Shown: positions 28,893-45,300 of the stretch, one piece after another | Layout of the letters: each line of letters starts with the position of its first letter | Numbering within the stretch: position 1 is the stretch's first letter | DNA from: Alcanivorax sp. DSM 26293 | GTDB taxonomy: Bacteria; Pseudomonadota; Gammaproteobacteria; Pseudomonadales; Alcanivoracaceae | Assembly (NCBI RefSeq): GCF_900107995.1 | Contig: NZ_FNUM01000013.1 | Coordinates: 1 to 46,225, forward strand | Length of the DNA stretch: 46,225 bases | Direction of reading: 5' to 3' | Program-made: the position numbers and the translations under genes | Notes under the pieces: generated by a model | Told to the model about the DNA's origin: nothing | The model's database searches: none | Seen by the model: the letters and a program-made list of their open reading frames with translations, nothing else

Positions 28893-30464
28893 ATGAAAGA
28901 TATCCATGCCCAGCGCATCCTGATTCTGGACTTCGGTTCCCAATACACCCAGCTGATTGCCCGCCGGGTGCGGGAAATCGGCGTGTACTGCGAAATCCGG
29001 GCCTTCGACATGACCGCCGAGGAGATCCGCGAATTCGCGCCCAAGGGCATTATCCTGTCCGGTGGCCCGGAATCCGTCACCGCCGCAGAAACCCCCCGTG
29101 CCCCGGAAGCGGTGTTCGAGGCCGGAATCCCGGTGCTGGGCATCTGCTACGGCATGCAGACCATGGCCGAGCAACTGGGCGGCAAGGTGATTGCCGGTGA
29201 AAAGCATGAATTCGGCTACGCGCGCGTGGAAAAGGCGGAAAAGAATCGCCTGCTGGACGGCATTGTCGATCACGAAGAACAGGGCAAGGAATACCTGGAT
29301 GTGTGGATGAGCCACGGTGACCGTGTTGGCGAAATGCCGACCGGGTTCGTCACTACCGCCACCACCGGCAGCTGCCCCATCGCTGGCATGGCCAACGACG
29401 AAAAACGCTTCTATGGCATCCAGTTCCACCCGGAAGTGACTCACACCCTGCAGGGCGGTCGTCTGCTGGAACGCTTCGTGCGTGAACTGTGCGACTGTGA
29501 AGCCCTGTGGACCCCGAGCAACATCATCAACGATGCCATAGACACCATCCGCGAGCAGGTGGGCACCGATGAAGTGATCCTGGGCCTGTCCGGCGGGGTG
29601 GATTCCTCCGTGGTGGCGGCGCTGTTGCACAAGGCCATTGGCGACCAGCTCACCTGCGTGTTCGTGGACAACGGCCTGCTGCGTCACCAGGAAGGTGACC
29701 AGGTCATGGAAATGTTCGCCGACAACATGGGCGTGAAAGTGATCCGCGTGGACGCGGAAGACAACTTCCTGGGCAAGCTGGCCGGCGAAGCGGACCCGGA
29801 AAAGAAGCGCAAGATCATCGGTAACACCTTCATCGACATCTTCGACGAGGAAGCCGGCAAGCTGAAGAACGCCAACTGGCTGGCCCAGGGCACCATCTAC
29901 CCGGATGTGATCGAATCCGCCGCCAGCAAGACCGGTGGCGCCCATGTGATCAAGAGCCACCACAACGTGGGCGGCCTGCCGGAAGACATGAAGCTCAAGC
30001 TGGTGGAACCCCTGCGTGAACTGTTCAAGGACGAAGTGCGCAAGATTGGCCTGGAGCTGGGGCTGCCCTATGACATGGTCTACCGCCACCCCTTCCCGGG
30101 GCCGGGCCTGGGCGTGCGTATCCTGGGTGAAGTGAAAAAGGAATACGCCGACACCCTGCGCCTGGCTGACCATATCTTCATTGAAGAGCTGCGCGCTGCC
30201 GGCCTGTATCACAAGACCAGCCAGGCGTTTGCCGTGTTCCTGCCGGTCAAGTCCGTGGGCGTGGTGGGCGATGCCCGTCGCTACGAATACGTGGTGGCCC
30301 TGCGCGCGGTGGAAACCATCGACTTCATGACCGCTCGCTGGGCGCATCTGCCCTATGAGTTCCTGGAGCTGGTCTCCAGCCGGATTATCAACGAGATTCC
30401 CGGCATCAGCCGCGTCACCTACGACATCTCGTCCAAGCCACCGGCCACGATTGAGTGGGAATGA
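28893..30464 (+). CDS. guaA: GMP synthase (glutamine-hydrolysing)
   Basis: 523-aa bifunctional enzyme making GMP from XMP. The class I glutamine amidotransferase domain has nucleophile C85 (LGICYGMQ), H179 and E181. The ATP-pyrophosphatase has P-loop SGGVDSS (about 233-239), and the C-terminal dimerisation domain ends KPPATIEWE. The final codons GAG TGG GAA TGA lie in the island attachment site: after insertion the last two codons are supplied by island DNA, and the native ending GAG TAG now sits at the far junction (45299-45304). The protein sequence is therefore preserved. Confidence 0.98.
30451..30460 (+). repeat. attL: left attachment-site repeat in the guaA 3' end
   Basis: TTGAGTGGGA is repeated exactly at 45291-45300. 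Here it is followed by ATGA, which completes guaA. It lies 311 bp upstream of a P4-type integrase gene. The 3' end of guaA is a well-known target of such integrases. Confidence 0.85.
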
Positions 30465-30511
30465 TTCCCTGTCTGGCACTGACTGGCACTCAATAGCATA
30501 AAGTCCTACCT

Positions 30512-30537
30512 AAGCCCATGTAATCATGGGCTTTTTT
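30512..30537 (+). terminator. Rho-independent terminator at the island left end
   Basis: AAGCCCATG (30512-30520) pairs perfectly with CATGGGCTT (30525-30533) around TAAT and is followed by a T-rich tract. It lies 47 bp after the guaA stop in island DNA, so the island supplies guaA with a replacement terminator. Confidence 0.88.
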
Positions 30538-30540
30538 GTT

Positions 30541-30771: not shown

Positions 30772-31974
30772 ATGCTGACCGATACCAAGCTGCGTAATCT
30801 CAAGCCCAGGGACCGACTCTACAAGGTGAATGACCGCGATGGACTCTATGTGGCCGTCACCAAGGCGGGATCCATCTCTTTTCGTTACAACTACTCCATC
30901 AACGGCAGGCAGGAAACCATCACCTTTGGCCGCTATGGCGTCGGTGGTATCACGTTGGCCGAAGCGCGCGAGCGGCTTCATGAAGCCAAGAAGATGGTGG
31001 CAGACGGCAAATCTCCTGCGAAAGAAAAGGCCCGTGACAAAGCGCGGGTAAAGGGCGCGGAAACGTTTGATGCGTGGGCTCAAAAATGGCTGCGCGGCTA
31101 CCAAATGGCTGACTCGACCCGAGATATGCGCCGCTCTGTTTACGAGCGTGAGCTCAAGCCAAAATTCGGTACCTGGAAGCTGGCAGAGATTACTCACGAG
31201 GACTTGCGGGCGCTGGTAGACGCTATTGTTGAGCGAGGGGCGCCGGCAACAGCTGTTCATGCACGTGAAATCGTGCTGCAGGTCTTTCGCTGGGCTATTG
31301 AGCGTGGCCAGAAGGTGGATAACCCCGCAAAGTTGGTACGCTCATCATCCATCGCAAAATTCGAGCCACGAGACCGAGCGCTAACGCCTGATGAGATCGG
31401 TTTGATGTACCAGTATTTGGAGCGGGTCGGTACAAGTCCGGCGTATCGGGCTGCGGCCAAGCTGCTTTTGCTGACGATGGTGCGTAAAAGCGAGCTGACG
31501 AATGCTACCTGGAGGGAGATCAACTTCAGCGAGGCTCTTTGGACAATCCCCAAAGAGCGAATGAAGCGGCGTAACCCGCACCTGGTGTTCCTGTCCCGGC
31601 AGGCACTGGATATTTTCATTGCGCTAAAGACCTTTGCGGGAGGCTCAGACTATGTGCTGCCGTCACGGTATGAGCCAGATACCCCGATGAGGGGGGCTAC
31701 GCTCAACAAGATTCTGACGATGACCTATGAGGCGGCGCAAAAAGATGGGAAGTCGCTTTCCAAGTTTGGACCGCATGATCTGCGTCGGACAGCCAGCACA
31801 CTGTTGCATGAGGCTGGTTACAACACCGACTGGATTGAAAAGAGCCTTGCGCATGAGCAGAAGGGGGTCAGAGCAATCTATAACAAGGCCGAGTACCGCG
31901 AACAGCGTACTGAAATGCTGCAGGACTGGGCGGATATGATTGATGAATGGACATTGCGCGAGCATAAAGGATAG
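30772..31974 (+). CDS. int: P4-type tyrosine integrase
   Basis: 400-aa site-specific recombinase: N-terminal DUF4102 arm-binding domain (about 1-90), SAM-like core-binding domain (about 95-185) and catalytic domain. Catalytic residues are R238 (TMVRKSELTNATW), H335-x-x-R338 (PHDLRRTAST), H361 (LAHEQ) and the nucleophile Y370 (AIYNKAEY). It reads away from guaA, into the island. Full-length and apparently functional. The next gene starts 26 bp downstream and may be co-transcribed. Confidence 0.95.
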   Translation: MLTDTKLRNLKPRDRLYKVNDRDGLYVAVTKAGSISFRYNYSINGRQETITFGRYGVGGITLAEARERLHEAKKMVADGKSPAKEKARDKARVKGAETFDAWAQKWLRGYQMADSTRDMRRSVYERELKPKFGTWKLAEITHEDLRALVDAIVERGAPATAVHAREIVLQVFRWAIERGQKVDNPAKLVRSSSIAKFEPRDRALTPDEIGLMYQYLERVGTSPAYRAAAKLLLLTMVRKSELTNATWREINFSEALWTIPKERMKRRNPHLVFLSRQALDIFIALKTFAGGSDYVLPSRYEPDTPMRGATLNKILTMTYEAAQKDGKSLSKFGPHDLRRTASTLLHEAGYNTDWIEKSLAHEQKGVRAIYNKAEYREQRTEMLQDWADMIDEWTLREHKG

Positions 31975-32000
31975 CAGCGTAAGCAGGTGGGGGCGATGGG

Positions 32001-34331
32001 ATGAGTGAGGAACGGAAGAAAGCGATTGTTTCCTTATTACAGGATATGGAGGCAATAGCTGCCCGAATGCGTGAGCTGATCGTCAATATGCCTCCGCATG
32101 ATTTGCTGGGCTATGTTTTCGCCCAAAGAATGATGAAAGCGATTGCAGAGCAAGGCGCCACCCAAGAGCAATGCGCAGTAGAAGCCCCATATGATCTGAC
32201 TGACGATTACCAGTTCTTGCTGGAGTATGTGCATGCGGTACTCGCGTCAGATGTCGAGCCCGCAGACATGGAATTTGACGAAGCCAAGTGTGCCGAGCTT
32301 TTTGAGATTAGCCGTGAACTGCGAGAGAAAGCCATGTTATTTGCCGTGGCTACGTCTGCGTCTACCAAAGACGGCATCTTTGGCCCTGATACTGCTGATA
32401 TCGAATTTCGTGCGAAGTCCACTTGGGTAATGATACGCGGGAATCGCTATCAAGTTTTGGAAGGGGAGTTTTACCGCTATGTCCTTGCGCCCCACGATGA
32501 TGTGCTGAATGAAGTGTACGGCGTTGCCGCTAGCGATATAGCGAAAGGCTTTCAAGCCATGGCCGATGCTACTCGCTCCGGGCATGCCAGTGCCGTTACG
32601 GAGGTTATGAAGCAGTATGAAGCGGCTCAGGCTTTCTCTGAGGAGCAAGGCAAGCCGTTGGAAGATGTCATGGGGCAATGGGGTGAGTCTAATGCAGAGC
32701 AGTTGAAAGCGGCTGGCTGGGCCATAGATGACATGCTTCGCGGCGGTGTTGCCAATGTAAGTCGTCACACTGAATTGCCGCCGATGTTGCTAGCGGACTT
32801 AGCGTACCAGCGTGGGGAAGAGGTCGAGTTCTTTGCTGCTGGCGAGTTTTCGGGAACCCCCTACCGAACGCTGCCTGTTCGAAAAAAGCCTCTGATCCAG
32901 CTTGGATCCGACTACTACGCCATCGATCCATGCTTTGCCCGAGATGCGGGGTATCGTGCTCTTCTCTATAACCTGCTTCAGCGAAAACCAGATTACAAAG
33001 AAGCCTTTAAAATTCGACAAAAAGAGATGAGTGAAGCTGCCTTTGCTGACATTTTATCCTCTCAGCTTCCTGGTGCCTTAGTTATTCAGGAAGTGTACTA
33101 CAAGGATCCGGTCAGTAAGCAGTGGGCTGAAAACGACACCCTCATCATGCTTGATGACGTACTATTTTTAGTTGAAGCCAAGGCCGGTGCGGCAGCTACA
33201 ATTGCATCGCCGGCGCTTGATTTTGGTCGACATGCTCAATCCGTTCAGGACTTGGTTGTTAAAGCTTACAAACAGTGTGAGCGATTCTTTAATTACCTGG
33301 ATTCGGCGGATGAAGTACCGCTTTATCACTTGGTTGATGGTAAATATGAAGAGTGTTGCCGTGTTCGACGTTCCGACTACCGTGTAATGGTGCCGGTCGG
33401 CCTGACAGTTGAGTCGTTCTCTCCATTTTCCGCTTACTGTAAGGAGCTTCCTCAAATTGAGCCGTTGCTAGGTAAGCATGCCTTCGTTTCGATGTCTGTC
33501 GATGACTTGTTTGTGCTCAAGCGGTTCCTGCCAACACCTGGCGAGTTCGCCCATTACATGGAGGTACGGCAAGCCGTCGCGGGGATGCGAGGGGCTCACC
33601 TCTTCGATGAATTTGACCATCTGGGTGCGTATCTTAAGAAAAACCGATTCGATCAGACGATTGCTGAGCAGCTGAAGGGCGGAGAGGTAAACATGCTTCT
33701 CATGGATAGGATGAGCGATATCGTCGACAGGAGCTTCGAGGGTGAGGATTGGGAAAGCGAGCCGCTTCCAACACAAGATTTCCCAGGCGAAGTGCTGAAG
33801 TTGCTTGGCGCGCTCGATTCTACCCGAGGGAGAGGGTGGCTTGCGGTGGAGAGCCACATTCGTGATCTAGGAGAGGATGCTCGTGGTAATCTTGCGAGCC
33901 TGCTTTCTGACCTTCGCCAAACCCTAGATCAACATCCTGCGCGCTATTTTCTCTTATTCGGGGATGGTAGGCCGCTTTTTGTGTGGCTTCAGCAGCATGG
34001 TAAGGAAATTGACTGGGTTAAGGCGGGGAACAAGGCCAGTGCCGCTGCTCTGGCCGCTGAGGCTTCCAGTCTCACCGGCGTCCTGGTAGAAGTTGGTGTT
34101 GATGGTGCTTATCAGCGTGCTGAGTCTTTCGCGGTACAAGTGCCAACTGGGCGAACGGAAGACAACTCGCATATCTATGAAGACGCTGCGCGAATGGCTC
34201 GCTCTGGGCGCTCTGTCAATTTTGACCGGCAACAAGGTGCTATCTCTGCGGTCGATAGTAAAAAGGTTGGCAGGAATGTCCCATGTCCCTGCGGAAGCGG
34301 CGTGAAGTACAAAAAGTGTCATGGCAGGTAG
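32001..34331 (+). CDS. SEC-C motif protein with PD-(D/E)xK-like core; possible defence gene
   Basis: 776-aa soluble protein. The extreme C-terminus is a SEC-C zinc motif (NVPCPCGSGVKYKKCHGR; C762, C764, C773, H774). Around 377-394, END...LFLVEAKAG has the spacing of a PD-(D/E)xK nuclease core (D379, E392, K394), with a strand before and a helix after. The N-terminal ~300 residues are largely helical and unrecognised. It lies 26 bp after int in the cargo position and starts after a GGTGGGGG Shine-Dalgarno. Base composition is visibly more AT-rich than the core genes. The nuclease and defence roles are inferences from motif and context. Confidence 0.65.
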   Translation: MSEERKKAIVSLLQDMEAIAARMRELIVNMPPHDLLGYVFAQRMMKAIAEQGATQEQCAVEAPYDLTDDYQFLLEYVHAVLASDVEPADMEFDEAKCAELFEISRELREKAMLFAVATSASTKDGIFGPDTADIEFRAKSTWVMIRGNRYQVLEGEFYRYVLAPHDDVLNEVYGVAASDIAKGFQAMADATRSGHASAVTEVMKQYEAAQAFSEEQGKPLEDVMGQWGESNAEQLKAAGWAIDDMLRGGVANVSRHTELPPMLLADLAYQRGEEVEFFAAGEFSGTPYRTLPVRKKPLIQLGSDYYAIDPCFARDAGYRALLYNLLQRKPDYKEAFKIRQKEMSEAAFADILSSQLPGALVIQEVYYKDPVSKQWAENDTLIMLDDVLFLVEAKAGAAATIASPALDFGRHAQSVQDLVVKAYKQCERFFNYLDSADEVPLYHLVDGKYEECCRVRRSDYRVMVPVGLTVESFSPFSAYCKELPQIEPLLGKHAFVSMSVDDLFVLKRFLPTPGEFAHYMEVRQAVAGMRGAHLFDEFDHLGAYLKKNRFDQTIAEQLKGGEVNMLLMDRMSDIVDRSFEGEDWESEPLPTQDFPGEVLKLLGALDSTRGRGWLAVESHIRDLGEDARGNLASLLSDLRQTLDQHPARYFLLFGDGRPLFVWLQQHGKEIDWVKAGNKASAAALAAEASSLTGVLVEVGVDGAYQRAESFAVQVPTGRTEDNSHIYEDAARMARSGRSVNFDRQQGAISAVDSKKVGRNVPCPCGSGVKYKKCHGR

Positions 34332-34358: not shown

Positions 34359-34375
34359 ATTTTAGCCGCTAAAAT
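34359..34375. promoter_or_regulatory. KorB-type operator (OB), copy 1
   Basis: ATTTTAGCCGCTAAAAT is a palindrome containing TTTAGCCGCTAAA, an exact match to the RK2 (IncP) KorB operator consensus TTTAGCSGCTAAA. It lies between the 3' ends of two convergent island genes. KorB operators can act at a distance, so position alone does not reveal the target. No korB gene occurs in the island. Confidence 0.7.
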
Positions 34376-34397: not shown

Positions 34398-35387
34398 CTA
34401 TAAGATGAATTCCTTTGGGATGCTGGCTAGGGCTTTAGATACAGCTTGCCGTGTCATTGGCTGCGCTTTGCCATTTTGTACACGCTGCCCTATTTCGGTC
34501 TGGCTGAGCCCTGACTTTCTGAGAACCAGCATTTTTTTCTTGGTGTCCGATAGTTTAGCGTCCACCATCCGGCGGGCTAGGTGGCGCAGTTCAGCTTTAT
34601 CTGCGGGCTGTAAGGTGAGTCGCTGCATGAGTTGGTAGAAGAAGCTACCAATCAACTTGTCTCCCGACATTGTAAGAATCCTGGACCGATTAGCGCACTG
34701 CTGGTTCAGTCTGTCGAGCTCAATGTGAAATTGTGCGCTTGAGCGCTTTGCCTTCCTGTAAGCAAGGTTCCACTCGCCATTTAATAGCTTGGGCCTATGT
34801 TTAGAGCAATACTGGTGGCTGAGTGCGAGTTTGTTATGGTCTTCTAGTTCCACGTCATTGATACGCTGGTTTGCCACGGTGACCATGAAATCTGCGAATT
34901 CTGTGAGGCTTCCGCAGAGTTCGCAGAAACCGTGCTTTCGTTGGTCATTAAGGTTGACGCCTTTTGTAGACGTAGTTCTTTTTGGGCGTTTGAGGGAACA
35001 GTCCCAAACCAAGCCAATCAGGGATTCTAGTGTCGCAATAAAGCACTGGTCTGTGCGGGACTGTCTATCTGCCGTTTTGATGAACTGGCGTAGCAGCTGG
35101 CGCTGCATTCTCACCATGCCATCAAGTCCCACCATTCTGATGATTTCACTGAGCTTTACCCCCGTTCCTGCGCCTGGAAGATAACCAGAATAGCTTTCTG
35201 GGAGGGTTTGTATGTACTCATCGATGGGCTGATCCATCACATCTTTGATTAGCCTAATGATGGGGTAGCGTCGGGATGATACAGAGTATGGTTGCCAGCG
35301 TTCCTCAAATCGCTGGATGGCTTTTGAGACGCTAGGGGAGCAGCCTTCCCATATAATGATTTTCGGCGTGTTTTTCATGTCAACCAT
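34398..35387 (-). CDS. Unrecognised island protein with CxxC zinc-like motif and C-terminal HTH
   Basis: About 329 aa. A putative zinc-binding region, FCELCGSLTEF ... SHQYCSKHRP (about 155-205), is followed by a basic segment. The C-terminal helix-turn-helix has SGLSQTEIGQRV and TRQAVSKALASIP (about 285-325). It may be a DNA-binding regulator. It is divergent from the AlpA-repA unit, and its 5' end abuts an 89-bp leader that recurs upstream of trbJ, so control of both units is conceivable. The start is uncertain (ATG 35387, ATG 35378 or TTG 35396). I do not recognise the family. Confidence 0.55.
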   Translation of the reverse strand: MVDMKNTPKIIIWEGCSPSVSKAIQRFEERWQPYSVSSRRYPIIRLIKDVMDQPIDEYIQTLPESYSGYLPGAGTGVKLSEIIRMVGLDGMVRMQRQLLRQFIKTADRQSRTDQCFIATLESLIGLVWDCSLKRPKRTTSTKGVNLNDQRKHGFCELCGSLTEFADFMVTVANQRINDVELEDHNKLALSHQYCSKHRPKLLNGEWNLAYRKAKRSSAQFHIELDRLNQQCANRSRILTMSGDKLIGSFFYQLMQRLTLQPADKAELRHLARRMVDAKLSDTKKKMLVLRKSGLSQTEIGQRVQNGKAQPMTRQAVSKALASIPKEFIL

Positions 35388-35467
35388 TTTAGACAATAAA
35401 TGGGCTTATTCAAGCGGCATTGCTGGGCACCATAAAGCTCTCATAAGTAAGTGGAGGCAGAAGAATG
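35379..35467 (+). repeat. Duplicated promoter/leader, copy A (upstream of the AlpA-repA unit)
   Basis: Aligns without gaps over 89 bp with 38183-38271, with about 15 mismatches by eye. The copies share AATAAATGG, a perfect 23-bp core around GCATTGCTGGGCACCATA, and a GGAGGCAG Shine-Dalgarno leading to an ATG. It covers the whole divergent intergenic region between the minus-strand HTH gene and the AlpA gene. Confidence 0.8.
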
Positions 35468-35686
35468 CAAGCAATGGCCAGCAAGACGCTCATTAATAAA
35501 AAAACGCTCTTACAGATCATTCCGCTGTCGCCAAGAACAATTTTCAATATGGAACAGCGAGGCGAGTTCCCGCGTCGCATTGCTCTGACCAGCAGAAACG
35601 TTGCGTGGGATTTGGCCGAGGTCGAGGAATGGATTGAGGAACGCAAGTCTTCGGGCCTACAAGCTAGACGACCCGGCAGATCATAG
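35465..35686 (+). CDS. AlpA-family regulator/excisionase-like protein
   Basis: 73-aa MerR-like winged-helix protein of the AlpA type: TLINKKTLLQIIPLSPRTIFNMEQRGEFPRRIALTSRNVAWDLAEVEEWIEERK. AlpA proteins of P4-like elements activate integrase expression or act as excisionases. A strong Shine-Dalgarno (GGAGG, 35453-35457) sits seven bases upstream. It is 12 bp before repA and likely co-transcribed, an xis-rep arrangement also seen in SGI1-type islands. Confidence 0.85.
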   Translation: MQAMASKTLINKKTLLQIIPLSPRTIFNMEQRGEFPRRIALTSRNVAWDLAEVEEWIEERKSSGLQARRPGRS

Positions 35687-35698
35687 AGGGTTGATCTA

Positions 35699-36610
35699 AT
35701 GACCCTAATGCCGGATCGGAACCGGCAAGGCGACTTCTTTGTAGCCGATATACTGGACGTAGTCCCTAAAGATGACATGGCTAGCATGGAGCACCCGTTG
35801 TTCGCCTTGAAGGCCGGTGACAAGCGCATTCGTAATTACGAACGAAACGGTAACACTGCCACTGTGCTTCCTGGAGCAACTGGACGCGCGACTATCCACG
35901 ACAAAGATCTGTGGATCTATTGTATCAGCCAGGTGGTGGAAGCGAAGAATCGGGGTCGAGAAATCTCGCGTACAGTTCGCTTTGTCATGTATGACTTTCT
36001 GACCGTTACTAACCGGCCAACATCAGGCATCGGCTACCAGCGGGCTACAGACATGCTGCGTCGGCTCAGTGGTACGCGTATTGAAACCAATATAAAGACA
36101 AATGGCCGGTGCGAGCGGCGCGGCTTTGGGCTGGTCGATTCTTGGCGAGTCGTGGAAAAGTCACCAAATGATAACCGCATGGTTGCAGTGGAGGTGACGT
36201 TGCCTGACTGGTTGTTCCGGTCGGTCGAGGCCATGCAGGTGTTAACTTTGAGTCGCGATTACTTCCGGCTACGCAAGGCGCTTGATCGCCGTATCTATGA
36301 ATTGGCTCGTAAACACTGCGGAAACCAACCGCATTGGCGAGTGAGGTTAGTCACGCTCTTGGAGAAAAGCGGCAGCACAGCTTCACTCCGAGAGTTTCGC
36401 AGGGGCATCAAGGTCTTAGCCGAAAGCGGAGCCTTGCCCGGTTATCTCATGGCCTACGATGCCGAGCGAGACCTGGTAACGTTTTATGCCGATGGCCCCG
36501 AGGGCAAGCGGGCCGAGATCAATGACATACTGGATGGACGGCCCCATGCCCCGGTCATCGCTCACCAAGCCCAACACAAACGCAGGCAAGCAAAACGCAA
36601 GCGTGTGTGA
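35699..36610 (+). CDS. repA: Plasmid-type replication initiator protein A (RPA family)
   Basis: 303-aa initiator of the RPA family (PF10134-like). Recognisable blocks include FALKAGDKRIRNYERNG, LWIYCISQVVEAKNRG, MYDFLTVTNRPTSGIGYQRATDMLRRLSGT and DYFRLRKALDRRIYELARKHCG, with a basic C-terminus (KRRQAKRKRV). It should bind the iterons that begin within its own stop region (36603-36736). Its presence on an integrated island implies that the excised circle can replicate. Confidence 0.87.
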   Translation: MTLMPDRNRQGDFFVADILDVVPKDDMASMEHPLFALKAGDKRIRNYERNGNTATVLPGATGRATIHDKDLWIYCISQVVEAKNRGREISRTVRFVMYDFLTVTNRPTSGIGYQRATDMLRRLSGTRIETNIKTNGRCERRGFGLVDSWRVVEKSPNDNRMVAVEVTLPDWLFRSVEAMQVLTLSRDYFRLRKALDRRIYELARKHCGNQPHWRVRLVTLLEKSGSTASLREFRRGIKVLAESGALPGYLMAYDAERDLVTFYADGPEGKRAEINDILDGRPHAPVIAHQAQHKRRQAKRKRV

Positions 36611-36840
36611 AGGTACGTGTCTTTTGGTTCTTGTGGATAACCGGTCGGCCTGTGAATTGGCATGTACTTTCACACACGCTCACGCTGTGAATTGGCTTGT
36701 ACGATCACACACACCCACCTTCGTACTTTCACACACAAGCGCTTTTTGGAAACCTAGTAACGACAAGGGCTGTATGGGCGACTGCTGCACCGTAACGCGC
36801 GCGCGATTTAACTTAAATATATTCTTTAACGCTTGGCGGC
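36603..36840 (+). other. oriV: Origin of replication (iterons, DnaA box, AT-rich region)
   Basis: Two 28-bp direct repeats begin CTGTGAATTGGC and end GTAC..TCACACAC (36650-36677 and 36685-36712; 35-bp phase). A third partial repeat TCGTACTTTCACACAC (36721-36736) and an inverted copy GTGTGTGAAGGTACG (36603-36617) share the GTAC-N-TCACACAC core. TGTGGATAA at 36632-36640 is a perfect DnaA box on the minus strand (TTATCCACA). An AT-rich stretch at 36806-36835 (TTTAACTTAAATATATTC) could be the unwinding element. Confidence 0.8.
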
Positions 36841-37310: not shown

Positions 37311-37337
37311 AGCCAAACCCCTGTCTTCAGTATTCAT

Positions 37338-37582: not shown

Positions 37583-37636
37583 AGGGCAGGACAGGTGAAG
37601 TAGGCCTACCGGGACAAGCCCGGTAACCTATTTCAC
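37583..37636 (-). other. oriT: IncP/RK2-type origin of transfer
   Basis: On the minus strand TACTTCACCTGTCCTGCCC differs from the RK2 nic region TACTTCACCTATCCTGCCC by one base. It is preceded by an inverted repeat (GTGAAAtAGG ... CCTActTCAC) with an inner hairpin TACCGGG/CCCGGTA. By analogy the nick falls between the complements of 37587 (G) and 37586 (C). The adjacent traJ gene reads away on the other side, as in RK2. Confidence 0.88.
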
Positions 37637-37710
37637 AATTCTTATTCGCAACAAGTGCTCAACGTGTCCTGCTCTGCGAGGCAAGCGGCTACCGCCGCAA
37701 AGGAAAAGAC

Positions 37711-38073
37711 ATGACTGCATCCGTTACGCGGAAGGGAACAACACCAATCAAAGTGTGGGTTCTGCCTGATGAAAAAGAAGCCATTACGCAGAAGGCAAAA
37801 GCCGCTGGTTTAAGTGCTTCGGCCTACCTGCGGAACGTGGGGATGGGTACGCCAGTGACGGGGGTTGCTGACCAGGAGGCTGTCTTGGATTTGGTGAAGA
37901 TCAATGCCGACCTTGGGCGACTTGGGGGGCTGCTGAAAATGTGGCTGACCAATGACGAGAAGCTAGACCTTGAGGGGTATGAACAGGCCGGCCTGGAGGC
38001 AGCTATTGTGGAAGCGATGCGAGAGATTAAGGCTTCCCAGGCCCTATTGTTTCAGAAGGCGTCCGAGCTGTGA
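37711..38073 (+). CDS. traJ: Relaxosome protein TraJ (IncP oriT-binding)
   Basis: 120 aa, matching RK2 TraJ along its length: RKGTTPIKVWVLPDEKEAI (RK2 RKGSPPIKVYCLPDERRAI), ASAYLRNVG, and INADLGRLGGLLKMWLTND (RK2 INGDLGRLGGLLKLWLTDD). TraJ is a ribbon-helix-helix protein that binds one arm of the oriT inverted repeat and recruits the TraI relaxase. The Shine-Dalgarno AAAGGA precedes the ATG. In RK2 traI follows directly; here no relaxase gene follows, so TraI must come from a helper. Confidence 0.92.
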   Translation: MTASVTRKGTTPIKVWVLPDEKEAITQKAKAAGLSASAYLRNVGMGTPVTGVADQEAVLDLVKINADLGRLGGLLKMWLTNDEKLDLEGYEQAGLEAAIVEAMREIKASQALLFQKASEL

Positions 38074-38182
38074 TTTTAGCGTCTGAGTCAGCCATGAGAA
38101 ATTGAGACTCGTTGATAGGCCCAGAAGTATGCTTGCCACGGAGCTCTGGTATTGCCGTGTCTAGTCCCTGGAGAAATATGGC

Positions 38183-38271: not shown

Positions 38272-39069
38272 GAAGCAAGGAACCCAAAGAGTTTGATAAA
38301 AATTTTAGCGGCTAAAACTGCTCTCACTCTGACTCTGATCAGCGGCAGTTTGTCGTCACCGGCCTTAGCCGGCATCCCTACCTTTGACGCTACCAACGTC
38401 ATTCAAACCACGATTAACGCCATGGAATCTGTTTCGCAGACCTTGCAGCAGATTGAGCAGTATCAGACGCAAATCCAGCAATACGAGAACCAACTGCAAA
38501 ACACCGCCGGGCCGGATGTCTATTTGTGGGATCAAGCCGAGGGAACTGTGGCCGATTTGCTTGGCGCAACGGATGCTCTGGAGCGCTACAAACAGCAGTT
38601 GGGCAGCCTTGATGAGTTCATGTCGGTTTATCAGGACGTGGATTATTACGGCAATTCTCCCTGTTTCACTGCTGAGGGCTGTTCAGAACAAGAACAGGCG
38701 ATGATGGCGCGTAACCGGGGCTTAGCCAGCCAGGGGCAGAAGCAAGCCAATGACGCAATGCTAAAAGGACTGGATCAGCAACAGGAGGCCTTGCGTAATG
38801 ACGCCCGCCGCCTGGAGAAGCTGCAGAGCAGTGCCCAGGGCGGCGATGGCCAAATGCAGGCATTGGGCTTCGCTAACCAGTTCGCCAGCCAGCAAGCGAA
38901 TCAGCTGCTGCAGATTCGTGGAATGCTCGCTGCCCAGCAAACGGCAATGGTGGCCCGGATGCAGGCAGAGGCCGACAGGGAAGCGCAAGAAACCACCGCT
39001 CGACATCACCTCTACGAAGGCATGACTACGCCGACAGACCGTTCAAAAAGCCAGGAGTTTAAACCATGA
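38269..39069 (+). CDS. trbJ: P-type conjugative transfer protein TrbJ
   Basis: 266-aa periplasmic VirB5-like component of the IncP mating-pair apparatus. A signal peptide (KILAAKTALTLTLISGSLSS, cleavage after PALA at residue 34) is followed by long Gln-rich helices (QTLQQIEQYQTQIQQYENQLQ; ALGFANQFASQQANQLLQI). The ATG at 38269 follows GGAGG by seven bases; an upstream TTG at 38224 is unlikely. A KorB-type operator lies inside the first codons (38303-38317). It is coupled to trbK by ATGA. Its last residues (TPTDRSKSQEFKP) resemble the tail of TrbK. Confidence 0.9.
   Translation: MEARNPKSLIKILAAKTALTLTLISGSLSSPALAGIPTFDATNVIQTTINAMESVSQTLQQIEQYQTQIQQYENQLQNTAGPDVYLWDQAEGTVADLLGATDALERYKQQLGSLDEFMSVYQDVDYYGNSPCFTAEGCSEQEQAMMARNRGLASQGQKQANDAMLKGLDQQQEALRNDARRLEKLQSSAQGGDGQMQALGFANQFASQQANQLLQIRGMLAAQQTAMVARMQAEADREAQETTARHHLYEGMTTPTDRSKSQEFKP
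38303..38317. promoter_or_regulatory. KorB-type operator (OB), copy 2, in the trbJ 5' end
   Basis: TTTTAGCGGCTAAAA contains TTTAGCGGCTAAA, an exact RK2 KorB operator. It lies 34 bp inside trbJ, about 100 bp downstream of the putative promoter, so bound KorB could block the trbJKL unit. Confidence 0.75.
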
Positions 39070-39215
39070 AGATTTTGCTGAATGTGGCCCTGTTGTGCTT
39101 GATGAGTCTGGTTTCGGGTTGTGGTGATGACAATGAGAACCAGAAGGAAAAGGACGTTTGGGAAGGTTTTTCTGACCCGGTTGATCGCTCAAAGAGCAAG
39201 GAGTTCCAGCCATGA
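39066..39215 (+). CDS. trbK: TrbK-like entry-exclusion lipoprotein
   Basis: 49-aa lipoprotein: a signal with lipobox LVSGC (C19), then a short charged tail (GDDNENQKEKDVWEGFSDPVDRS...). Position between trbJ and trbL, small size and lipid anchor match RK2 TrbK, which blocks entry of like plasmids. ATGA overlaps on both sides show translational coupling. The C-terminal DPVDRSKSKEFQP mirrors the TrbJ tail TPTDRSKSQEFKP; part of this DNA also encodes the next gene's Shine-Dalgarno (AAGGAGTTC). Confidence 0.8.
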   Translation: MKILLNVALLCLMSLVSGCGDDNENQKEKDVWEGFSDPVDRSKSKEFQP

Positions 39216-40468
39216 AAGCAATGCTCTCAAGGATGCTCATTGCAGGACCACCGTTACTCCTGTCTCAATCTGCCTTTGCTGCGGTTGAAAAAGAAGGGGT
39301 CCTTAACGAGGTTGCGGCAAGGTACCTGGAAGCCAGTGCCACCTGGGGAGGTGTTATTACCGGCTATGCGGAATGGTTGTTCTGGACGCTAGCCGTTATC
39401 TCGATGGTGTGGACGTTTGGTTTTATGGCCTTACGCCAAGCTGACCTTGGTGAGTTCTTCTCCGAATTTATTCGGTTCACGATCTTTACCGGGTTTTTCT
39501 ACTGGCTTTTGAGTAATGGCCCGGATATGGCAATGGCCATTATTCGATCACTCTCTATTGTCGGTGGGGAAGCATCAGGAATGGGGCGCAGCCTATCGCC
39601 TTCAACGCCGATTGATATTGCTTTCGACATCCTGGCGAAGGCCGGTAAAAGCTACGAGTGGAGTAGTCCCATCGACAACCTGTCCATCTTCTTGATTACC
39701 CTTGCCATTCTGGCGTGTCTGGCCGTGGTCGCGGCTAATGTCCTGTTGGCCATGCTCACCGCTTACATTCTGGCGTATGCCGGAATTTTCGTGCTTGGGT
39801 TTGGTGGTTCCAGATGGACCAGCGATATTGCGTTTAACTACTTTCGGGCAGTAATCGGTATTGGGTTAAAACTGATGGCGATGACCCTGATGATTGGCAT
39901 TGGCGTTTCCATCCTGGACGGTTACCACAATAGTCTTTCAGAGAATGCCACCATTACAGAACTGATGGTCGTTTTCGTTGTGTGCCTGGTGCTGGTGATC
40001 CTGATCAATACCGTTCCCAACGTGATTGCAGGTCTGATTCCTGGGGGAGGCTCCGCTGGTGCTGCGGGCAGCTCCTTCGGTGCGGGAACGCTTGTCGGTG
40101 CTGCGGTAGGCGCAGGTGCGATGTCTGCTGGTGGTGCGGGTCTTGCAGTCAAGGGGGCGGCGGCAACATCCAGGGGAGCGTCGGGAGGGGTTAGCGCGAT
40201 AAAGGCAGCGATGGCCACTGCACAGGCAGATCAAGCCAGACAAGCCCCAACTGTTGCCCCTGCGATGGGTGGCAAGCAATCCACCTTTTCCCAAAAGATG
40301 GGGCAGGGGGTTGGAACCGCTGTTAGCGCTGCTGGGCATCTGAGACAAGGCATAAGCCAGGTCAGATCTGAAAACCGGCAGGCAGCTATTTCTCAAACGG
40401 CAGGGGGCAAGGTGGCAGATGCCATCAAGGCCCAGTTTGAAGACAAGAAGCCCGAAGACGACGAGTAA
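39212..40468 (+). CDS. trbL: P-type conjugative transfer protein TrbL
   Basis: 418-aa polytopic inner-membrane VirB6-like channel component. It has a signal-like N-terminus, then several transmembrane helices (about 48-66, 84-103, 153-195, 207-233, 249-267). A Gly/Ala-rich and Gln-rich soluble tail (about 275-418; GGGSAGAAGSSFGAGTLVG...) ends in EDKKPEDDE, as in RK2 TrbL. No further trb genes follow; the unit ends at a stem-loop. Confidence 0.9.
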   Translation: MKAMLSRMLIAGPPLLLSQSAFAAVEKEGVLNEVAARYLEASATWGGVITGYAEWLFWTLAVISMVWTFGFMALRQADLGEFFSEFIRFTIFTGFFYWLLSNGPDMAMAIIRSLSIVGGEASGMGRSLSPSTPIDIAFDILAKAGKSYEWSSPIDNLSIFLITLAILACLAVVAANVLLAMLTAYILAYAGIFVLGFGGSRWTSDIAFNYFRAVIGIGLKLMAMTLMIGIGVSILDGYHNSLSENATITELMVVFVVCLVLVILINTVPNVIAGLIPGGGSAGAAGSSFGAGTLVGAAVGAGAMSAGGAGLAVKGAAATSRGASGGVSAIKAAMATAQADQARQAPTVAPAMGGKQSTFSQKMGQGVGTAVSAAGHLRQGISQVRSENRQAAISQTAGGKVADAIKAQFEDKKPEDDE

Positions 40469-40477
40469 GCAAGTGTG

Positions 40478-40502
40478 CCGACCGGCATGGCGCGCCGGTC
40501 GG
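40478..40502 (+). terminator. Stem-loop after trbL
   Basis: CCGACCGGC (40478-40486) pairs perfectly with GCCGGTCGG (40494-40502) around a 7-base loop, 9 bp after the trbL stop. There is no strong T-run. It probably ends or stabilises the trbJKL transcript. Confidence 0.6.
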
Positions 40503-40854
40503 AGCATTCCTAACCCACTTGTAGAGAGGCAAAGGGCTCGGCTGGAGGAATCCACCGAGTGATGCCTGCTATGAATGGCCATTAACCTAACCGGTGGATA
40601 GTAGGGGAGGGGGGGTAAGGCCTAGGCCAGAGATGATCACGAAGGTGGGTGCTAGTGGGTGCCGTGGGGAGTGTTGGTAGGCTTTTTTTAGCTGCTAAAA
40701 TTTGCCTGTACCCTATTTTCTTGAGTCATGTACCGGTCAGGATGGAGGAAGTTAAGCTGGACGATCTGATAAAGTTCTTCTGGGTAGGCCTGAAATGCTA
40801 GTTTTCTGAGTACAGGCCTGATTAGAGCGCAGTCGTAAGGTGGCATTAACAATA
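40503..40854 (+). other. Upstream region of the large NTPase gene
   Basis: Non-coding. It contains a KorB-like palindrome at 40686-40700 and G-rich sequence around 40600-40660 (GTGGGTGCTAGTGGGTGCCGTGGGG). I find no confident -35/-10 pair. Confidence 0.4.
40686..40700. promoter_or_regulatory. KorB-like operator (OB), copy 3
   Basis: TTTTAGCTGCTAAAA contains TTTAGCTGCTAAA: the RK2 KorB operator with T instead of G/C at the centre. It lies about 155 bp upstream of the NACHT-like gene, the usual place for KorB control. Confidence 0.6.
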
Positions 40855-43800
40855 ATGATCGAAAGAGCCTTCCAAGATATTCCTGATGGGGAAATTAGAG
40901 CTGCTGACCAGCAGTCGTTCTTAGTCGGCCTTGGTTGGGGGAGGGCCTCCACATGGGATGATTTGCTGCAATCAAAGCGTATAACGATAGTTTCTGAAGC
41001 TGGTTCTGGTAAGACCTACGAATGTCGTGCGCAGGCAGAGAGGCTGTGGGCTGCGGGTGAACCAGCTTTTTTTGTCGAATTGGCAGCTTTGGCGACCGAA
41101 GATCTTCGTGGGCTGCTAGATGCAGATGAGGAAGCTAGGTTGGATGAATGGTTTGCCTCGCAATTTGGGCTTGCGACATTTTTCTTGGATTCGATTGATG
41201 AGCTTAAATTAACACAAGGTTCGTTTGATCGTGCGCTCAAACGGCTTAAAAAGTGTGTCGGGAATCAACTTCACCGAGCGAGAATCATTATTACGACCCG
41301 GCCGATTCCTTTCGACGAACAGAGGGTCCGAAACGTACTGCCTGTTCCTGTTGTACCCTCTTCGGAATCTAATGAAGAGACATTTGCGAAAATTGCAATG
41401 TGTGAACACAAGGATCAGCTTGCTGATAAGAATAAGGATCAAGCTCCGGAATGGCGATCCGTTGCCTTGATGCCTTTGTCGGACGAACAGGTTATCCAAT
41501 TTTCTCAAAGTCAAGGCGTGACGGATCCTGATAGTCTTTTGGCTGATTTACGGCGCCGGAATGCTCAAGAGTTTGCTCGAAGACCCCAGGATTTAATTGA
41601 ATTGTGCGTTGACTGGCGTGAGCATAAGCGCATCCGAAGACATCGTGATCAGGTTGCTACGAATGTTCGGTTGAAGCTGCTGCCTAGCGACGAGAGACCT
41701 GAGCCCGCAGAATTATCAGTCGATAAGGCGATCGAAGGTGCTAGCCGTCTCGCTCTAGCAGTGCAAATGACTCGCCGTTTAACAATCCGTCATAATGCGG
41801 CATCTGACGATATTGATGCGGAAGCTGCTCTGGATCCAGCCACTATACTTTCTGATTGGCAGCCGAACGAACGAAAAGCGCTACTTGAGCGCCCGTTATT
41901 CGGCTTTGCGTCGTATGGGCGAGTGCGTTTTCATCACCGCTCTGTTGCTGAGTATCTGGCTGCACAGCGGTTAATAACTCTTCGAAGTGAAGGTATGCCG
42001 TTTAGAGCCCTCAAACGGCTTCTCTTCGCAGAGACTAGAGGCAAGACAATCGTTCGCCCCTCCAAGCGGCCAGTCGCGGGCTGGGTGGCTATGCATGAGG
42101 ATGGTGTATTTGAGCTCTTGAGGGATCATGAACCAGCAGTCCTCCTAGACGAAGGTGACCCCGAGTCCTTAACGCAAACGCAGCGAAATCAGGCGCTTCG
42201 TGCCTTCGCGGACCGCTATGGACCTGGTGGGTGGAGAGGGTTGCGGGTGCCTCACATCCAGGTCCACCGTTTTGCTACGAAAGAGCTGGCCGATGAAATC
42301 AACAGAATCTGGCACAGAGGTGTGGAAAACCCGGATGTACGTGAGGTCCTTGTCAGCCTCATTGAGGCAGGAGGCATCGAAGCTTGTGCGGATATTGCAT
42401 TCGATGCTGCTCAGGACAGTGCTGCACCTGTGATTGAGCGTATAGCCGCTATTGATGCGTTGGTTGCCCTCGATGACAAGAGGCTAACGCAGATTGCTAC
42501 CAGTATTGCTGATGCCGAAAAAACTTGGAATGAGGGAGAGGCGCGCGGTGCTGTATTGCGTCTTTTTCCAAAGTACATGTCGGTTGAGAGCCTCTGTCGT
42601 ACTCTCCAATGGATGAAACAAGAAACTCGGAGTGTAGGGGACCTTAGCTGGCAACTTCCAAGCATAGTAGCAGAGTCCCCCCTTGATCTGCCCGCTCTTG
42701 AAAGGCTTCGGGATGGCCTCGTGAGCCTGGTTTCAGAAGGACTTAAATGGCGAGCAGAGTGGCCGCATATTACGAGCGATAGGCCGTTCTTATGTGGAGT
42801 GCTTGCCGCAACATGTGAGCGGGGCCTCGATCTTAATCAAGATGACAGGTGGCTGCATGCCGGTGCGCTTGCTGTGCGAGTACATCATCGAGACCATGGG
42901 GACGATTCACCGATAAAATCCCTTCGTGAGCGCCTTGCCAATCTTAATGCAAACGATAATGCTCGCCTTTTCTGGGTTGAGGACGCTTTGCTTCTGTCGC
43001 TCCATGAATTCGAAGAACCTTGGCGACGACTCGCAGAAATTACAATTCATGATGGGCCGGTTCAGCTAAGAGCGGATCGAGATTTGCCATGGGTGAGTGA
43101 GGCACTTGGTGACTCGACACGCGAAGCAGATGATAGGGCCATGCTCTTAGAGGCGGCGATCCGTCTATCGCCCGACCGTGATACATGGAGAGAACATGTT
43201 GAGGGGCTGAAGTCTCTAATAGCGGATGTGCCTTTATTCGTGAATAGACTCGACGATTTATTGAAACCGTCAAGACACGAAAAAGAGCACCGCCGCTGGG
43301 AGAAAAGGCAGGCTTTACGAAAGAAGCAAGAGGAGAGAAAAAAAGCTAAGGGGCGCGCTAGCTGGGTTCAGTTTTGGCGGGAGATTGCTAATCAGCCTGA
43401 AAGCGCTTTTTCGTCTGAGCGCGGTTGGAACACGGCTTGGAACTTATGGAGAGCGATGCGCCACGTAGGTGATGACAGTAGATCGTCGGGCTGGAACCGC
43501 CGCTTCATTGAGGAGCAATTTAACTCCGAAACTGCGGATAGACTTCGCCGTATTCTGATGGCGGCCTGGCGCGATGACCTTCCAACGTTGTCAAGCGAAA
43601 GGCCGGAAGATCAGCGTAATACATACCTTGTACGCTGGCAGCTAGGTCTTGCTGCGATCTATGCCGAAGCAGAGGATTCCCTTTGGGCGACTAAGCTCAG
43701 CCATGCCGAGGCCCAGTTGGCGGCACGGTATGCTCCAATAGAGCTGAATGGTCTACCGCAATGGTTAGAGCCTCTCGGAATGGTGCATCCAACAGCCATA

Positions 43801-45156
43801 GATCAGACACTCGGAAATGAGTTGTCATGGGAGCTAAACCAAACACCGGCTACGCATGGCTATTCAGGTTTGCTTCAAGGGATCGACTATGCGCCCGAGA
43901 GTTTAGCTAGATTGTTTCTGCCAAGGTTAGAGTCTTGGCTTGAGGCAGGTGGTGATCAAAGCGATAGCGCCGATAGCGAGACCGGAATGGAGGAAAGAAT
44001 CCGGAAGGTCACGGGGTGTATTTTGAAACATGGCGATGATGCAGCAATTGAAAAGCTGCAAGATCGGGCACTCCAAAGACTGGAGCAACAATTACCTTTA
44101 GGGATGCGCCTTGTTTGGCTGTCGCTAGTCATGAGAATCAATCCTCAAGTGGGTGTCGATAAGCTAGCGGCTCAGCTTGAGGCAGTTGAGCCAGCTGAGC
44201 ACTCAGAAGCTGTGACATGCTTCGCCAATCTTTTTGGGGATCGTCTGGGTGAAATTATTAGCTTAAACGACGGGCGTTTCACTCCCCAGTTATTACTGCG
44301 GCTGCTTCGGCTAGCGTACCGCCATATTCGAATACAGGATGATGCATATCATGAAGGGTCCTATTCGCCGGATACTCGAGACGATGCTGAGCGAGCACGC
44401 AATAATATAGTGACGGCAATGTTTGACGCTAAGAGCGAAGAAGGGCTGGTCGCCAAGCTCGAGATGGCTGCAGATCCTTTGTTCGATCACTTTAAGGATC
44501 GCATTTTGGCTGTGGCAGAAGAGAATTGGGCGCAGGAGGTTGATGCTGGCGCGTTTGATGAGGCTCAAGCAGTGGCGCTTGATCAAAGCGGTGAAGCGCC
44601 AGCATCAACGAATGAAGCCATATTTGCGATTATGAAGGATCGGTTGTCTGACCTTGATGATCTTCTTTTGTGTGATGCTTCGCCACGGGAAGCCTGGGCG
44701 GGGATATTAGACGAAAAGGTTATGCGGCGAGAAATTGCTCGTGAGCTAAGGCATGCTTCTAATTCGATCTACACTGTGGATCAGGAGGCCGTGACAGCCG
44801 ACGAAAAGGAGACTGACATACGTTTGCGCTCTGTTAATTCAAAACATGAGGCTGTCATCGAGCTTAAACTTGGTGATCGACGTACATTCAAAGACTTACG
44901 AGATACAATTGAAAATCAGCTGGTTAGAAAATACATGGCAGCAGAGCATAGTAAGGCGGGGGTTTTGCTGGTGACCCTTGCAAAAGACCGTCACTGGAAA
45001 GTTGAAAACCGTTTTATCCAGGCAGATGAATTGTTGTCGCTATTGAAGGATGAGGCGGCAAGAGTTCAGGAGGCGTCGGGGGGAGAGGTTTTTATAGGCG
45101 TGCATCTTCTCGATTTGCGGCCTAGGTTGCCTGTTGAGTCTCAAGCTAAGTCCTGA
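40855..45156 (+). CDS. NACHT/STAND-like NTPase with C-terminal PD-(D/E)xK-like nuclease motif
   Basis: About 1433 aa. The N-terminal P-loop NTPase has Walker A VSEAGSGKT (46-54), Walker B FFLDSIDE (109-116) and a sensor-like ITTRP (about 146-150), typical of NACHT ATPases. A winged-helix-like segment with RVRFHHRSVAEYLAAQRL (about 360-375) is followed by a long helical region, probably repeats, with a basic coiled coil (about 800-845). Near the C-terminus D1321 (TDIRLRS), E1336-x-K1338 (AVIELKLG) and IENQLVRKYM fit a restriction-endonuclease-like fold. Bacterial NACHT proteins are antiphage sensors; here the predicted effector is DNA cleavage. GTG at 40840 is an alternative start. AT-rich, so recently acquired. 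Confidence 0.8.
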   Translation: MIERAFQDIPDGEIRAADQQSFLVGLGWGRASTWDDLLQSKRITIVSEAGSGKTYECRAQAERLWAAGEPAFFVELAALATEDLRGLLDADEEARLDEWFASQFGLATFFLDSIDELKLTQGSFDRALKRLKKCVGNQLHRARIIITTRPIPFDEQRVRNVLPVPVVPSSESNEETFAKIAMCEHKDQLADKNKDQAPEWRSVALMPLSDEQVIQFSQSQGVTDPDSLLADLRRRNAQEFARRPQDLIELCVDWREHKRIRRHRDQVATNVRLKLLPSDERPEPAELSVDKAIEGASRLALAVQMTRRLTIRHNAASDDIDAEAALDPATILSDWQPNERKALLERPLFGFASYGRVRFHHRSVAEYLAAQRLITLRSEGMPFRALKRLLFAETRGKTIVRPSKRPVAGWVAMHEDGVFELLRDHEPAVLLDEGDPESLTQTQRNQALRAFADRYGPGGWRGLRVPHIQVHRFATKELADEINRIWHRGVENPDVREVLVSLIEAGGIEACADIAFDAAQDSAAPVIERIAAIDALVALDDKRLTQIATSIADAEKTWNEGEARGAVLRLFPKYMSVESLCRTLQWMKQETRSVGDLSWQLPSIVAESPLDLPALERLRDGLVSLVSEGLKWRAEWPHITSDRPFLCGVLAATCERGLDLNQDDRWLHAGALAVRVHHRDHGDDSPIKSLRERLANLNANDNARLFWVEDALLLSLHEFEEPWRRLAEITIHDGPVQLRADRDLPWVSEALGDSTREADDRAMLLEAAIRLSPDRDTWREHVEGLKSLIADVPLFVNRLDDLLKPSRHEKEHRRWEKRQALRKKQEERKKAKGRASWVQFWREIANQPESAFSSERGWNTAWNLWRAMRHVGDDSRSSGWNRRFIEEQFNSETADRLRRILMAAWRDDLPTLSSERPEDQRNTYLVRWQLGLAAIYAEAEDSLWATKLSHAEAQLAARYAPIELNGLPQWLEPLGMVHPTAIDQTLGNELSWELNQTPATHGYSGLLQGIDYAPESLARLFLPRLESWLEAGGDQSDSADSETGMEERIRKVTGCILKHGDDAAIEKLQDRALQRLEQQLPLGMRLVWLSLVMRINPQVGVDKLAAQLEAVEPAEHSEAVTCFANLFGDRLGEIISLNDGRFTPQLLLRLLRLAYRHIRIQDDAYHEGSYSPDTRDDAERARNNIVTAMFDAKSEEGLVAKLEMAADPLFDHFKDRILAVAEENWAQEVDAGAFDEAQAVALDQSGEAPASTNEAIFAIMKDRLSDLDDLLLCDASPREAWAGILDEKVMRREIARELRHASNSIYTVDQEAVTADEKETDIRLRSVNSKHEAVIELKLGDRRTFKDLRDTIENQLVRKYMAAEHSKAGVLLVTLAKDRHWKVENRFIQADELLSLLKDEAARVQEASGGEVFIGVHLLDLRPRLPVESQAKS

Positions 45157-45290
45157 GCGGTATTGGAATCGTGGTGTTATGAACGCCGTTACTCAATCGG
45201 TAATTGCGCTGAATGGTATTTTTCATGGTATTAAATGCAGGCAGTCTTTTAAGTTGTTGAAATTAAACATTTAATTTAAATTGGTTATGT
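45157..45290 (+). other. Island right-end region
   Basis: AT-rich and gene-free (for example TTAAACATTTAATTTAAATTGG at about 45263). TTTTTCATGGTATTA (45219-45233) mirrors a left-end motif. Likely recombinase or host-factor binding sites. Confidence 0.4.
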
Positions 45291-45300
45291 TTGAGTGGGA
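45291..45300 (+). repeat. attR: right attachment-site repeat
   Basis: An exact copy of TTGAGTGGGA, here followed by GTAG. In the guaA reading frame this gives GAG TGG GAG TAG, the same Glu-Trp-Glu-stop as the current guaA end but with different codons, followed by a terminator. It marks where host DNA resumes after the island. Confidence 0.85.

Follow-up and report, generated by a model that had tools for sequence, protein, structure and literature searches.

A guaA island with transfer genes and no relaxase

The DNA analyzed here is contig NZ_FNUM01000013.1 of Alcanivorax sp. DSM 26293 (assembly GCF_900107995.1, 3.7 Mb in 22 contigs, completeness 100), all 46,225 nt of which are referred to as the window, and our subject is a chromosomal island within it that is bounded at the guaA 3' end by two copies of the core GAGTGGGA, located at 30453 and 45293 and spaced 14,840 bp apart. 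The left core (attL, 30453..30460, + strand) lies within the final codons of guaA and is the same as that printed for the genomic island GIsul2 in the consulted part of Zhang et al. (2022, PMC9376610), and the right core (attR, 45293..45300, + strand) has the same sequence. The G+C content of the island is about 0.49-0.56 per kilobase and that of the chromosome to its left is 0.56-0.66, except for 0.45 in the first kilobase. The island has part of an IncP-like transfer module together with palindromes that match the operator of KorB, the protein that is both the ParB and the global repressor of IncP plasmids, and it has no korB gene. Such palindromes recur throughout a family of related islands, and the sequence evidence that they are KorB recognition sites is strong.

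The transfer module reads on the + strand. An RK2-like origin of transfer (oriT) that includes the nic region (GTGTCCTGCTCTGCG) was assigned to 37594..37678 by alignment with IncP oriT, and it is followed by a gene for a TraJ/NikA-like, oriT-binding relaxosome protein (37711..38073; PF21983, with NF010451 at 121.8 bits, below the cut-off of 134). Next come VirB5-like TrbJ (38272..39069; NF010452, 338 bits, above the NCBIfam cut-off), a TrbK-like lipoprotein of 49 aa that is a candidate for entry exclusion by its position and LVSGC lipobox only (39066..39215), and VirB6-like TrbL (39212..40468; PF04610; TIGR02783, 239 bits), with the trbK open reading frame (ORF) overlapping both trbJ and trbL by ATGA. 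A preliminary description of this DNA had listed an integrase, an AlpA/xis-like gene, repA with iteron-like repeats, the RK2-like oriT, traJ, trbJ-trbK-trbL and three KorB operators, and this inventory was confirmed in full. So were the absences that it claimed, those of a relaxase, a coupling protein, other trb genes and korB: ten island proteins were profile-scanned with no relaxase, coupling-protein, KorB or further Trb match among them, and tblastn of the island with the IncP queries traI, traG, trbB, trbE, trbG, trbI, korB and incC gave no match.

KorB-operator palindromes in the Alcanivorax genome

The palindrome TTTAGCNGCTAAA is what we take to be the 13-bp KorB operator. It occurs nine times in the IncP plasmid R751 (50 of 53.4 kb read) and eight times in two stretches of pBS228 together, and RP4 is described as having 12 palindromic 13-bp KorB operators in the part of the source consulted (PMC10954446). 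Three copies lie in the island, none of them with a strand. The first (34361..34373, TTTAGCCGCTAAA, exact) is 25 bp past the 3' end of the gene at 34398..35396 and between converging genes, the second (38304..38316, TTTAGCGGCTAAA, exact) is inside the signal-sequence codons of trbJ, and the third (40687..40699), in which only the center base is changed, to T, is between trbL and the cargo gene hyoA, 141 bp upstream of the latter, where its right half and a weak promoter-like match overlap. A probable vestigial operator, likewise strandless, with the left half kept and the right half damaged, is found at the traJ stop (38075..38087), the position of an intact operator before traI in IncP plasmids and in relaxase-bearing islands, and it is followed by an ATG with a stop three codons on. 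The damaged traJ-traI operator and the short ATG frame suggest that traI was lost from this island while the other operators stayed exact.

In the genome as a whole there are eight sites, all of them in two islands, three in this one and five in a second island on contig 18, with none for the reversed pattern used as a control. When three mismatches are allowed, the window gives 10 palindrome matches against 6.2 expected, so that only near-exact palindromes count.

KorB palindromes across related islands

Relatives were collected by a TrbJ alignment scan of one genome per species (84,980 species), from which the best 80 of 264 confirmed relatives were kept. The search patterns left out the operator region and the ranking was by whole-TrbJ similarity, including the four residues over the operator. 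Some of the loci are cut by contig ends, and L028, a copy of L026, was dropped from the counts. Other trb mating-channel genes are nearby in 20 loci; the other 60 (59 without the copy) have no trbB, trbE, trbG or trbI match within the fetched stretch, which is what is meant here by an absence of mating-channel genes.

The KorB operators, the best lead of the preliminary description, proved to be family-wide, with at least one exact palindrome in 58 of the 59 loci without mating-channel genes (151 sites in 1.04 Mb); 119 control palindromes made from permuted half-sites gave a mean of 0.042 and a maximum of 1. The sole locus without a palindrome, L042, is a 6.4-kb contig that begins inside trbJ. 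In 56 of the 59 (all except L025, L042 and L058) the matched trbJ start has a site no more than 60 bp away, an additional site is present elsewhere in 47, and korB and traG have no match in any of them. The trbJ-proximal site is also common to IncP, since 15 of the 20 loci with mating-channel genes have one (a count made by eye, with the near-copies L009-L012 among the 15). In 18 islands with both att cores, 44 sites are inside (280 kb) and none outside (134 kb). Across 25 host genomes, 69 of 91 sites are in the island locus and the remaining 22 are close to the 20 given by the reversed control in the same genomes. A single site alone is not notable, as one or more occur in 80 of the 369 genomes of the class. 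Chance occurrence of the operators was rejected on the basis of the genome count, the family scan against permuted palindromes and the comparison inside and outside att-bounded islands.

Conservation of the operators

The site in trbJ encodes Leu-Ala-Ala-Lys (LAAK). Every one of the 57 trbJ genes with this peptide, from 63 examined, uses TTA, GCT and AAA with a T preceding, while elsewhere in the same genes TTA accounts for 3% of Leu, GCT for 15% of Ala and AAA for 20% of Lys codons; the 57 genes share ancestry and are not 57 independent events. Among the six trbJ genes without LAAK, the palindrome is found just upstream of trbJ in L031, L037 and L051, and the contig end truncates the gene in L042. 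Of 30 loci that allow the comparison, 23 (all but L020, L032, L043, L054, L069, L082 and L084) have another recurrent site no more than 460 bp from the 3' end of their counterpart of gene 34398-35396 (the 34398-type gene), in many cases at the int stop codon or close to it. Six of the 30 listed islands (L020, L022, L053, L054, L064 and L080) have a third, some 200 bp past repC, the listed 30 including L028 and so representing 29 distinct loci. No int, 34398-type gene or repC of such type is annotated in the IncP stretches read, and the sites beside these genes are therefore not a matter of simple inheritance. The flanks of exact sites have a mean column identity of 0.46-0.54, in rows that were chosen for an exact core, so that the core value of 1.0 proves nothing.

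It could be argued that the operators are inert remnants of an IncP-derived transfer module, given that two of the recurrent positions, in trbJ and at traJ-traI, are as in IncP plasmids and that one operator of the present island seems to have decayed. We consider this unlikely in view of the rare synonymous codons kept at the trbJ site in all comparable genes, the three loci that have a site despite missing its coding version, the sites beside int, the 34398-type gene and repC, and the mean identity of 0.46-0.54 in the flanks around cores that are exact by selection.

A second alternative accepts that KorB binds and limits its effect to regulation, such that helper KorB dampens trbJKL, hyoA or other island genes, or excised copies of the island titrate KorB and derepress the helper, with no part played by partition. 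The positions of two sites fit this, that in trbJ being just within the first gene of trbJKL and that at 40687 being close upstream of hyoA, while the 34361 site, between converging genes, does not. The 12-bp KorA operator, in the letters that we presume for it, has no copy in 64 islands and seven among the 20 loci that have mating-channel genes (3 and 8 copies, respectively, for its 10-bp core). According to the part of the source consulted, KorB represses as a sliding clamp able to act on promoters as far as 1.5 kb away, about 4- to 5-fold from both near and 1.5-kb-distant operators, and KorA strengthens KorB repression, above all from distant operators (PMC11790492). The lack of the 12-bp KorA operator in the islands speaks against this alternative. 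On balance, we regard regulation alone as a substantial possibility, if a minority one.

Several points weigh against giving the palindromes a role that depends on a helper. The letters of the operator are our presumption, the site counts come from sequences related by descent and not from independent events, and the trbJ and traJ-traI sites are also present in IncP plasmids and are to that extent inherited. In L025 and L058 the LAAK peptide has been lost along with the trbJ site, as might happen to inert remnants, and some islands, for example L004, L032 and L063, have the trbJ site only. Near the operators, promoter matches reach only chance level (6 found, 4.5 expected), which counts against regulation alone as well, and a terminator scan was also near chance. 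To judge by the title of a paper cited in PMC10954446, partition in RK2 needs the operator OB3, and the other KorB sites are said to form destabilizing complexes without it, which would favor regulation alone. Lastly, the present genome has no VirB4 (PF03135), KorB-domain (PF08535) or TrbE match, and hence no helper for the island is visible in this assembly.

Potential helpers in host genomes

A host protein that reads the operators was considered and rejected, since the best match to R751 KorB in this genome (C17, 33% identity) is beside ParA and looks like part of a chromosomal ParAB system. This ParB-like protein has other residues at the positions of KorB T211 and R240, which we take to be the positions to compare. 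When the present genome and 25 island hosts were compared with R751 KorB, a protein more than 50% identical to it was present in only two of the 26: in Marinobacter sp. F3R08, the host of L015 (58% over a fragment), and in the host of L031 (71%). TrbE-like matches were obtained in 10 of the 26, and all are only 24-40% identical except for that of Marinobacter sp. F3R08, which is IncP-like (83%). The contig with the Marinobacter KorB fragment also has an IncP-like oriT, and its ORF lengths and order, from which alone the genes were read, suggest traI and traJ. Marinobacter sp. F3R08 (L015; L096, L100-L102) has a guaA island as well as IncP-like plasmid contigs and may represent a natural pair of an island and an IncP helper. 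Two Pseudomonas genomes have more than one locus of interest: P. yangonensis MY50 has operator-bearing loci on different contigs (L047, L080), and P. jinjuensis (L039, L068) has one operator-bearing locus and a trb cluster without an operator in the fetched 20.7 kb.

The origin of transfer and the source of the relaxase

The inverted repeat and nic region are kept in the alignment of the window oriT with IncP and island sequences, and a search of 72,556 plasmid records with the 161 bp at 37560-37720 gave matches in 320, of which 273 are typed conjugative. The oriT pattern is present in 17 of 21 guaA islands without a relaxase (all but L021, L032, L033 and L063) and in eight of eight with one, compared with 0 of 29 reversed controls, and 11 of the 21 have a traJ match. 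In a TrbJ tree of 82 rows made by a quick method (leaving out L010, L011, L012, L028 and L071), the presence of a relaxase, scored as a match or no match within the fetched stretch, changes at least 12 times, and the TrbJ of the window is on a long branch next to another long branch, so its placement is unsure.

The preliminary description had raised the possibility that traI lies elsewhere in the same element; the relaxase of this genome sits in a different island, on another contig. This sister island on contig 18 (L007:11407-18543, L008:550-1656) has trbL, a small lipoprotein-like ORF, trbJ, a relaxase (PF03432, 39% identical to IncP TraI), traJ, oriT, an operator-flanked small ORF and repA, whose product is 78% identical to the RepA of the window, and the five KorB palindromes mentioned above. 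By eye, it also has an alpA-like ORF and a different tyrosine integrase and adjoins rpoD. The TraJ of the window is 78% identical to that of the sister island and 63% identical over 79 aa to that of IncP plasmid pBS228, and its oriT is 91% identical to that of contig 18, with other loci reaching at most 81% and pBS228 75%. Moreover, both islands have GTCCTG at nic (37666-37671 in the window), where the aligned IncP references have ATCCTG.

These three similarities, in TraJ, oriT and nic, make the sister-island relaxase a real alternative to helper TraI, and the relaxase might usually come from an island of this kind rather than from an IncP plasmid, which would require two islands and a plasmid to meet. 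Most relaxase-less relatives with the oriT pattern have the IncP-like ATCCTG nic, the co-residence of the two islands may be due to chance, and relaxases often act across small oriT differences. We judge that a relaxase from a sister island is close to an even prospect but falls somewhat short of it.

Integration, replication and cargo genes

The remaining genes of the island are those for its integration and replication and its cargo. The tyrosine integrase gene (30772..31974, + strand; PF00589, PF13356, PF22022) encodes a protein 88% identical to its counterpart in L004, a GIsul2-type island of E. coli, and a candidate excisionase of the AlpA type (35465..35686, + strand; PF05930) precedes RepA of the replication initiator protein A family (35699..36610, + strand; PF10134, 294 bits). 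Three direct, iteron-like 14-bp repeats resembling GTACTTTCACACAC are 3' of repA and form a candidate oriV (36664..36736, + strand). The ORF at 37143..37337 (- strand, 64 aa) has no match above cut-off in Pfam or NCBIfam, and by eye a similar small ORF is beside the operator cluster of the sister island. The conserved island protein of 332 aa (34398..35396, - strand) has relatives in many islands and no Pfam, NCBIfam, PADLOC or PHROG match; by eye it shows mid-protein cysteine pairs and a helix-turn-helix-like end.

The IncP-like transfer genes and operators, and the short ATG frame after the vestigial traJ-traI operator, might be taken to mean that the island is a decayed IncP plasmid. All the listed genes are open, however, the RepA is of PF10134 while annotated IncP records name TrfA, and tblastn (which did not have trfA among its queries) found no remnants of trbB, trbE, trbG, trbI, traG or korB. 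In addition, the compact plan recurs across many species with matching att cores. A decayed plasmid is accordingly rejected, and we see hardly any chance of it.

Two cargo genes, both on the + strand, come in addition to the features of the preliminary description. That in slot 1 (32001..34331) encodes a 776-aa protein with a C-terminal SEC-C motif (PF02810), to which PADLOC matches are confined to the last residues, and a 76% identical relative occupies the same slot in L019. The gene in slot 2, hyoA (40840..45156), encodes a HyoA-type NACHT antiphage protein of 1438 aa (NCBIfam NF058534, 1570.5 bits, cut-off 1200) with no solved-structure match, and the name HyoA was not found in the open-licence PubMed Central literature searched. 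In an E. coli guaA island (L003:4050-7873), the corresponding slot has an annotated ATP-dependent nuclease and a UvrD-helicase-domain gene, a pair reminiscent of Gabija. Beyond attR, at 45400-46057 of the window, the G+C content is still low (0.49) and a MerR-like ORF is seen by eye, which perhaps represents another acquired piece.

A proposed mechanism

We propose that the island is probably an integrative and mobilizable element of the guaA/TrbJKL group that uses an IncP-type helper, and that the KorB of this helper loads on the operators of the island. The integrase would excise the island, and RepA and its repeats would replicate the excised circle for a time. TraJ, together with a relaxase supplied in trans by the IncP helper or by a sister island, would then nick oriT, and the coupling protein and mating channel of the helper would carry the strand, with the TrbJ, TrbK and TrbL of the island replacing subunits of the helper. 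In the presence of an IncP-type helper, its KorB would load on the island operators, and this could lead to use of the partition machinery of the helper, to tuning of trbJKL and neighboring genes, or to both, in the way that SGI1 makes use of the parABS system of IncC plasmids. Partition, regulation and titration by the KorB sites are indistinguishable from the present sequence evidence. The most elaborate form of the mechanism is a three-layer parasite that takes its relaxase from the sister island, its mating channel from IncP and its partition from KorB/IncC, that displaces the plasmid as SGI1 does and that has HyoA turned down when the helper is present, and we think it quite improbable that all of these apply.

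Antibiotic, arsenic and defence-like genes are found in relatives of these islands, for which dependence on IncP plasmids has so far only been proposed. KorB operators throughout a family that has no korB bear the mark of the helper itself, and the proposal becomes directly testable with the tools available for RP4.

Comparison with known systems

The essence of this proposal is in part already published. In the consulted parts of the papers cited here and below, GIsul2 and its relatives are described as encoding TrbJ, TrbK and TrbL while missing a relaxase, a coupling protein and the other subunits for mating-pair formation (MPF), and as likely to use IncP helpers and to remodel the mating channel in favor of retrotransfer (Guedon et al. 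2017, PMC5704250). The preliminary description held that the island follows a strategy like that of SGI1 with an IncP-type helper and that no IncP counterpart had been described; the anatomy and the family comparison agree with the strategy, but Guedon et al. made the same proposal, which contradicts the claim of novelty. Excision of GIsul2 and its integrase-dependent integration at guaA have been demonstrated (Zhang et al. 2022, PMC9376610). Transfer to E. coli, at about 2.8e-7 per donor, is on record for a guaA island of 28.5 kb that has trbJ, trbK and trbL; the authors label this island an integrative and conjugative element with annotated relaxase genes, and the parts consulted do not name a helper (PMC7775301). 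No transconjugants were obtained with GIflu-1, another island at guaA, which has traJ, traI and trbJ (PMC13418153). Among the titles found in the open-licence PubMed Central search there is no experiment on mobilization of GIsul2 by IncP plasmids. KorB is named 0 times in PMC5704250 and PMC9376610, and no description of KorB operators in these islands was found in the open-licence PubMed Central literature searched. Islands dependent on IncP have thus been proposed before, and what seems to be unreported is the family-wide presence of KorB operators in the absence of korB.

The present island resembles GIsul2 and its relatives in its guaA 3' site with GAGTGGGA, its int, alpA, repA and trbJ-trbK-trbL genes and its lack of a relaxase and mating channel. 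It differs from GIsul2 in that its ten scanned proteins include no sul2, CR2, resG or ars gene product, in that its RepA is of PF10134 while GIsul2 has a helicase RepA and a RepC (queries with repAhel and repC had no match in the window), and in its HyoA-type NACHT and SEC-C genes. Unlike L004, it has traJ, which was not found in L004, and three KorB operators rather than one. The island belongs to the broad guaA/TrbJKL (GIsul2) group, having its site, its int and AlpA, its trbJKL and its lack of a relaxase and MPF genes, and it is neither GIsul2 in the strict sense nor SGI1. It is also similar to the IncP island of Brucella suis and Burkholderia glumae in the guaA site of the Brucella member, the IncP-type trbJ and trbL and TraJ, but it lacks a relaxase of its own, such as the MobP enzyme of the Burkholderia member and its relatives (PMC5704250, in the part consulted). 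With the IncP-1 plasmids themselves (R751, pBS228 and RK2/RP4) it shares oriT, TraJ, TrbJ, TrbL and KorB operators, but those plasmids combine korB, traI and a trb operon in a single replicon, which the island does not, and its RepA is of another named family.

The closest parallel in strategy is SGI1, whose helper is an IncC plasmid. Both elements are without a relaxase and have their own replication gene and their own mating-pair proteins, but SGI1 is inserted at trmE rather than guaA, encodes TraG, TraH and TraN rather than TrbJ, TrbK and TrbL, and depends on another family of helper. In SGI1, sites that mimic parS bind the ParB of IncC, stabilize a mini-SGI1 by means of helper ParA and ParB, and destabilize the helper (PMC10954446, in the part consulted). 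Sites for the ParB of the helper have been shown in SGI1 and are predicted here from sequence, and by analogy we infer that the guaA islands bind helper KorB as SGI1 binds the ParB of IncC. If this is true, different satellites, SGI1 with IncC plasmids and these islands with IncP plasmids, would both have come to bind the ParB of their helper.

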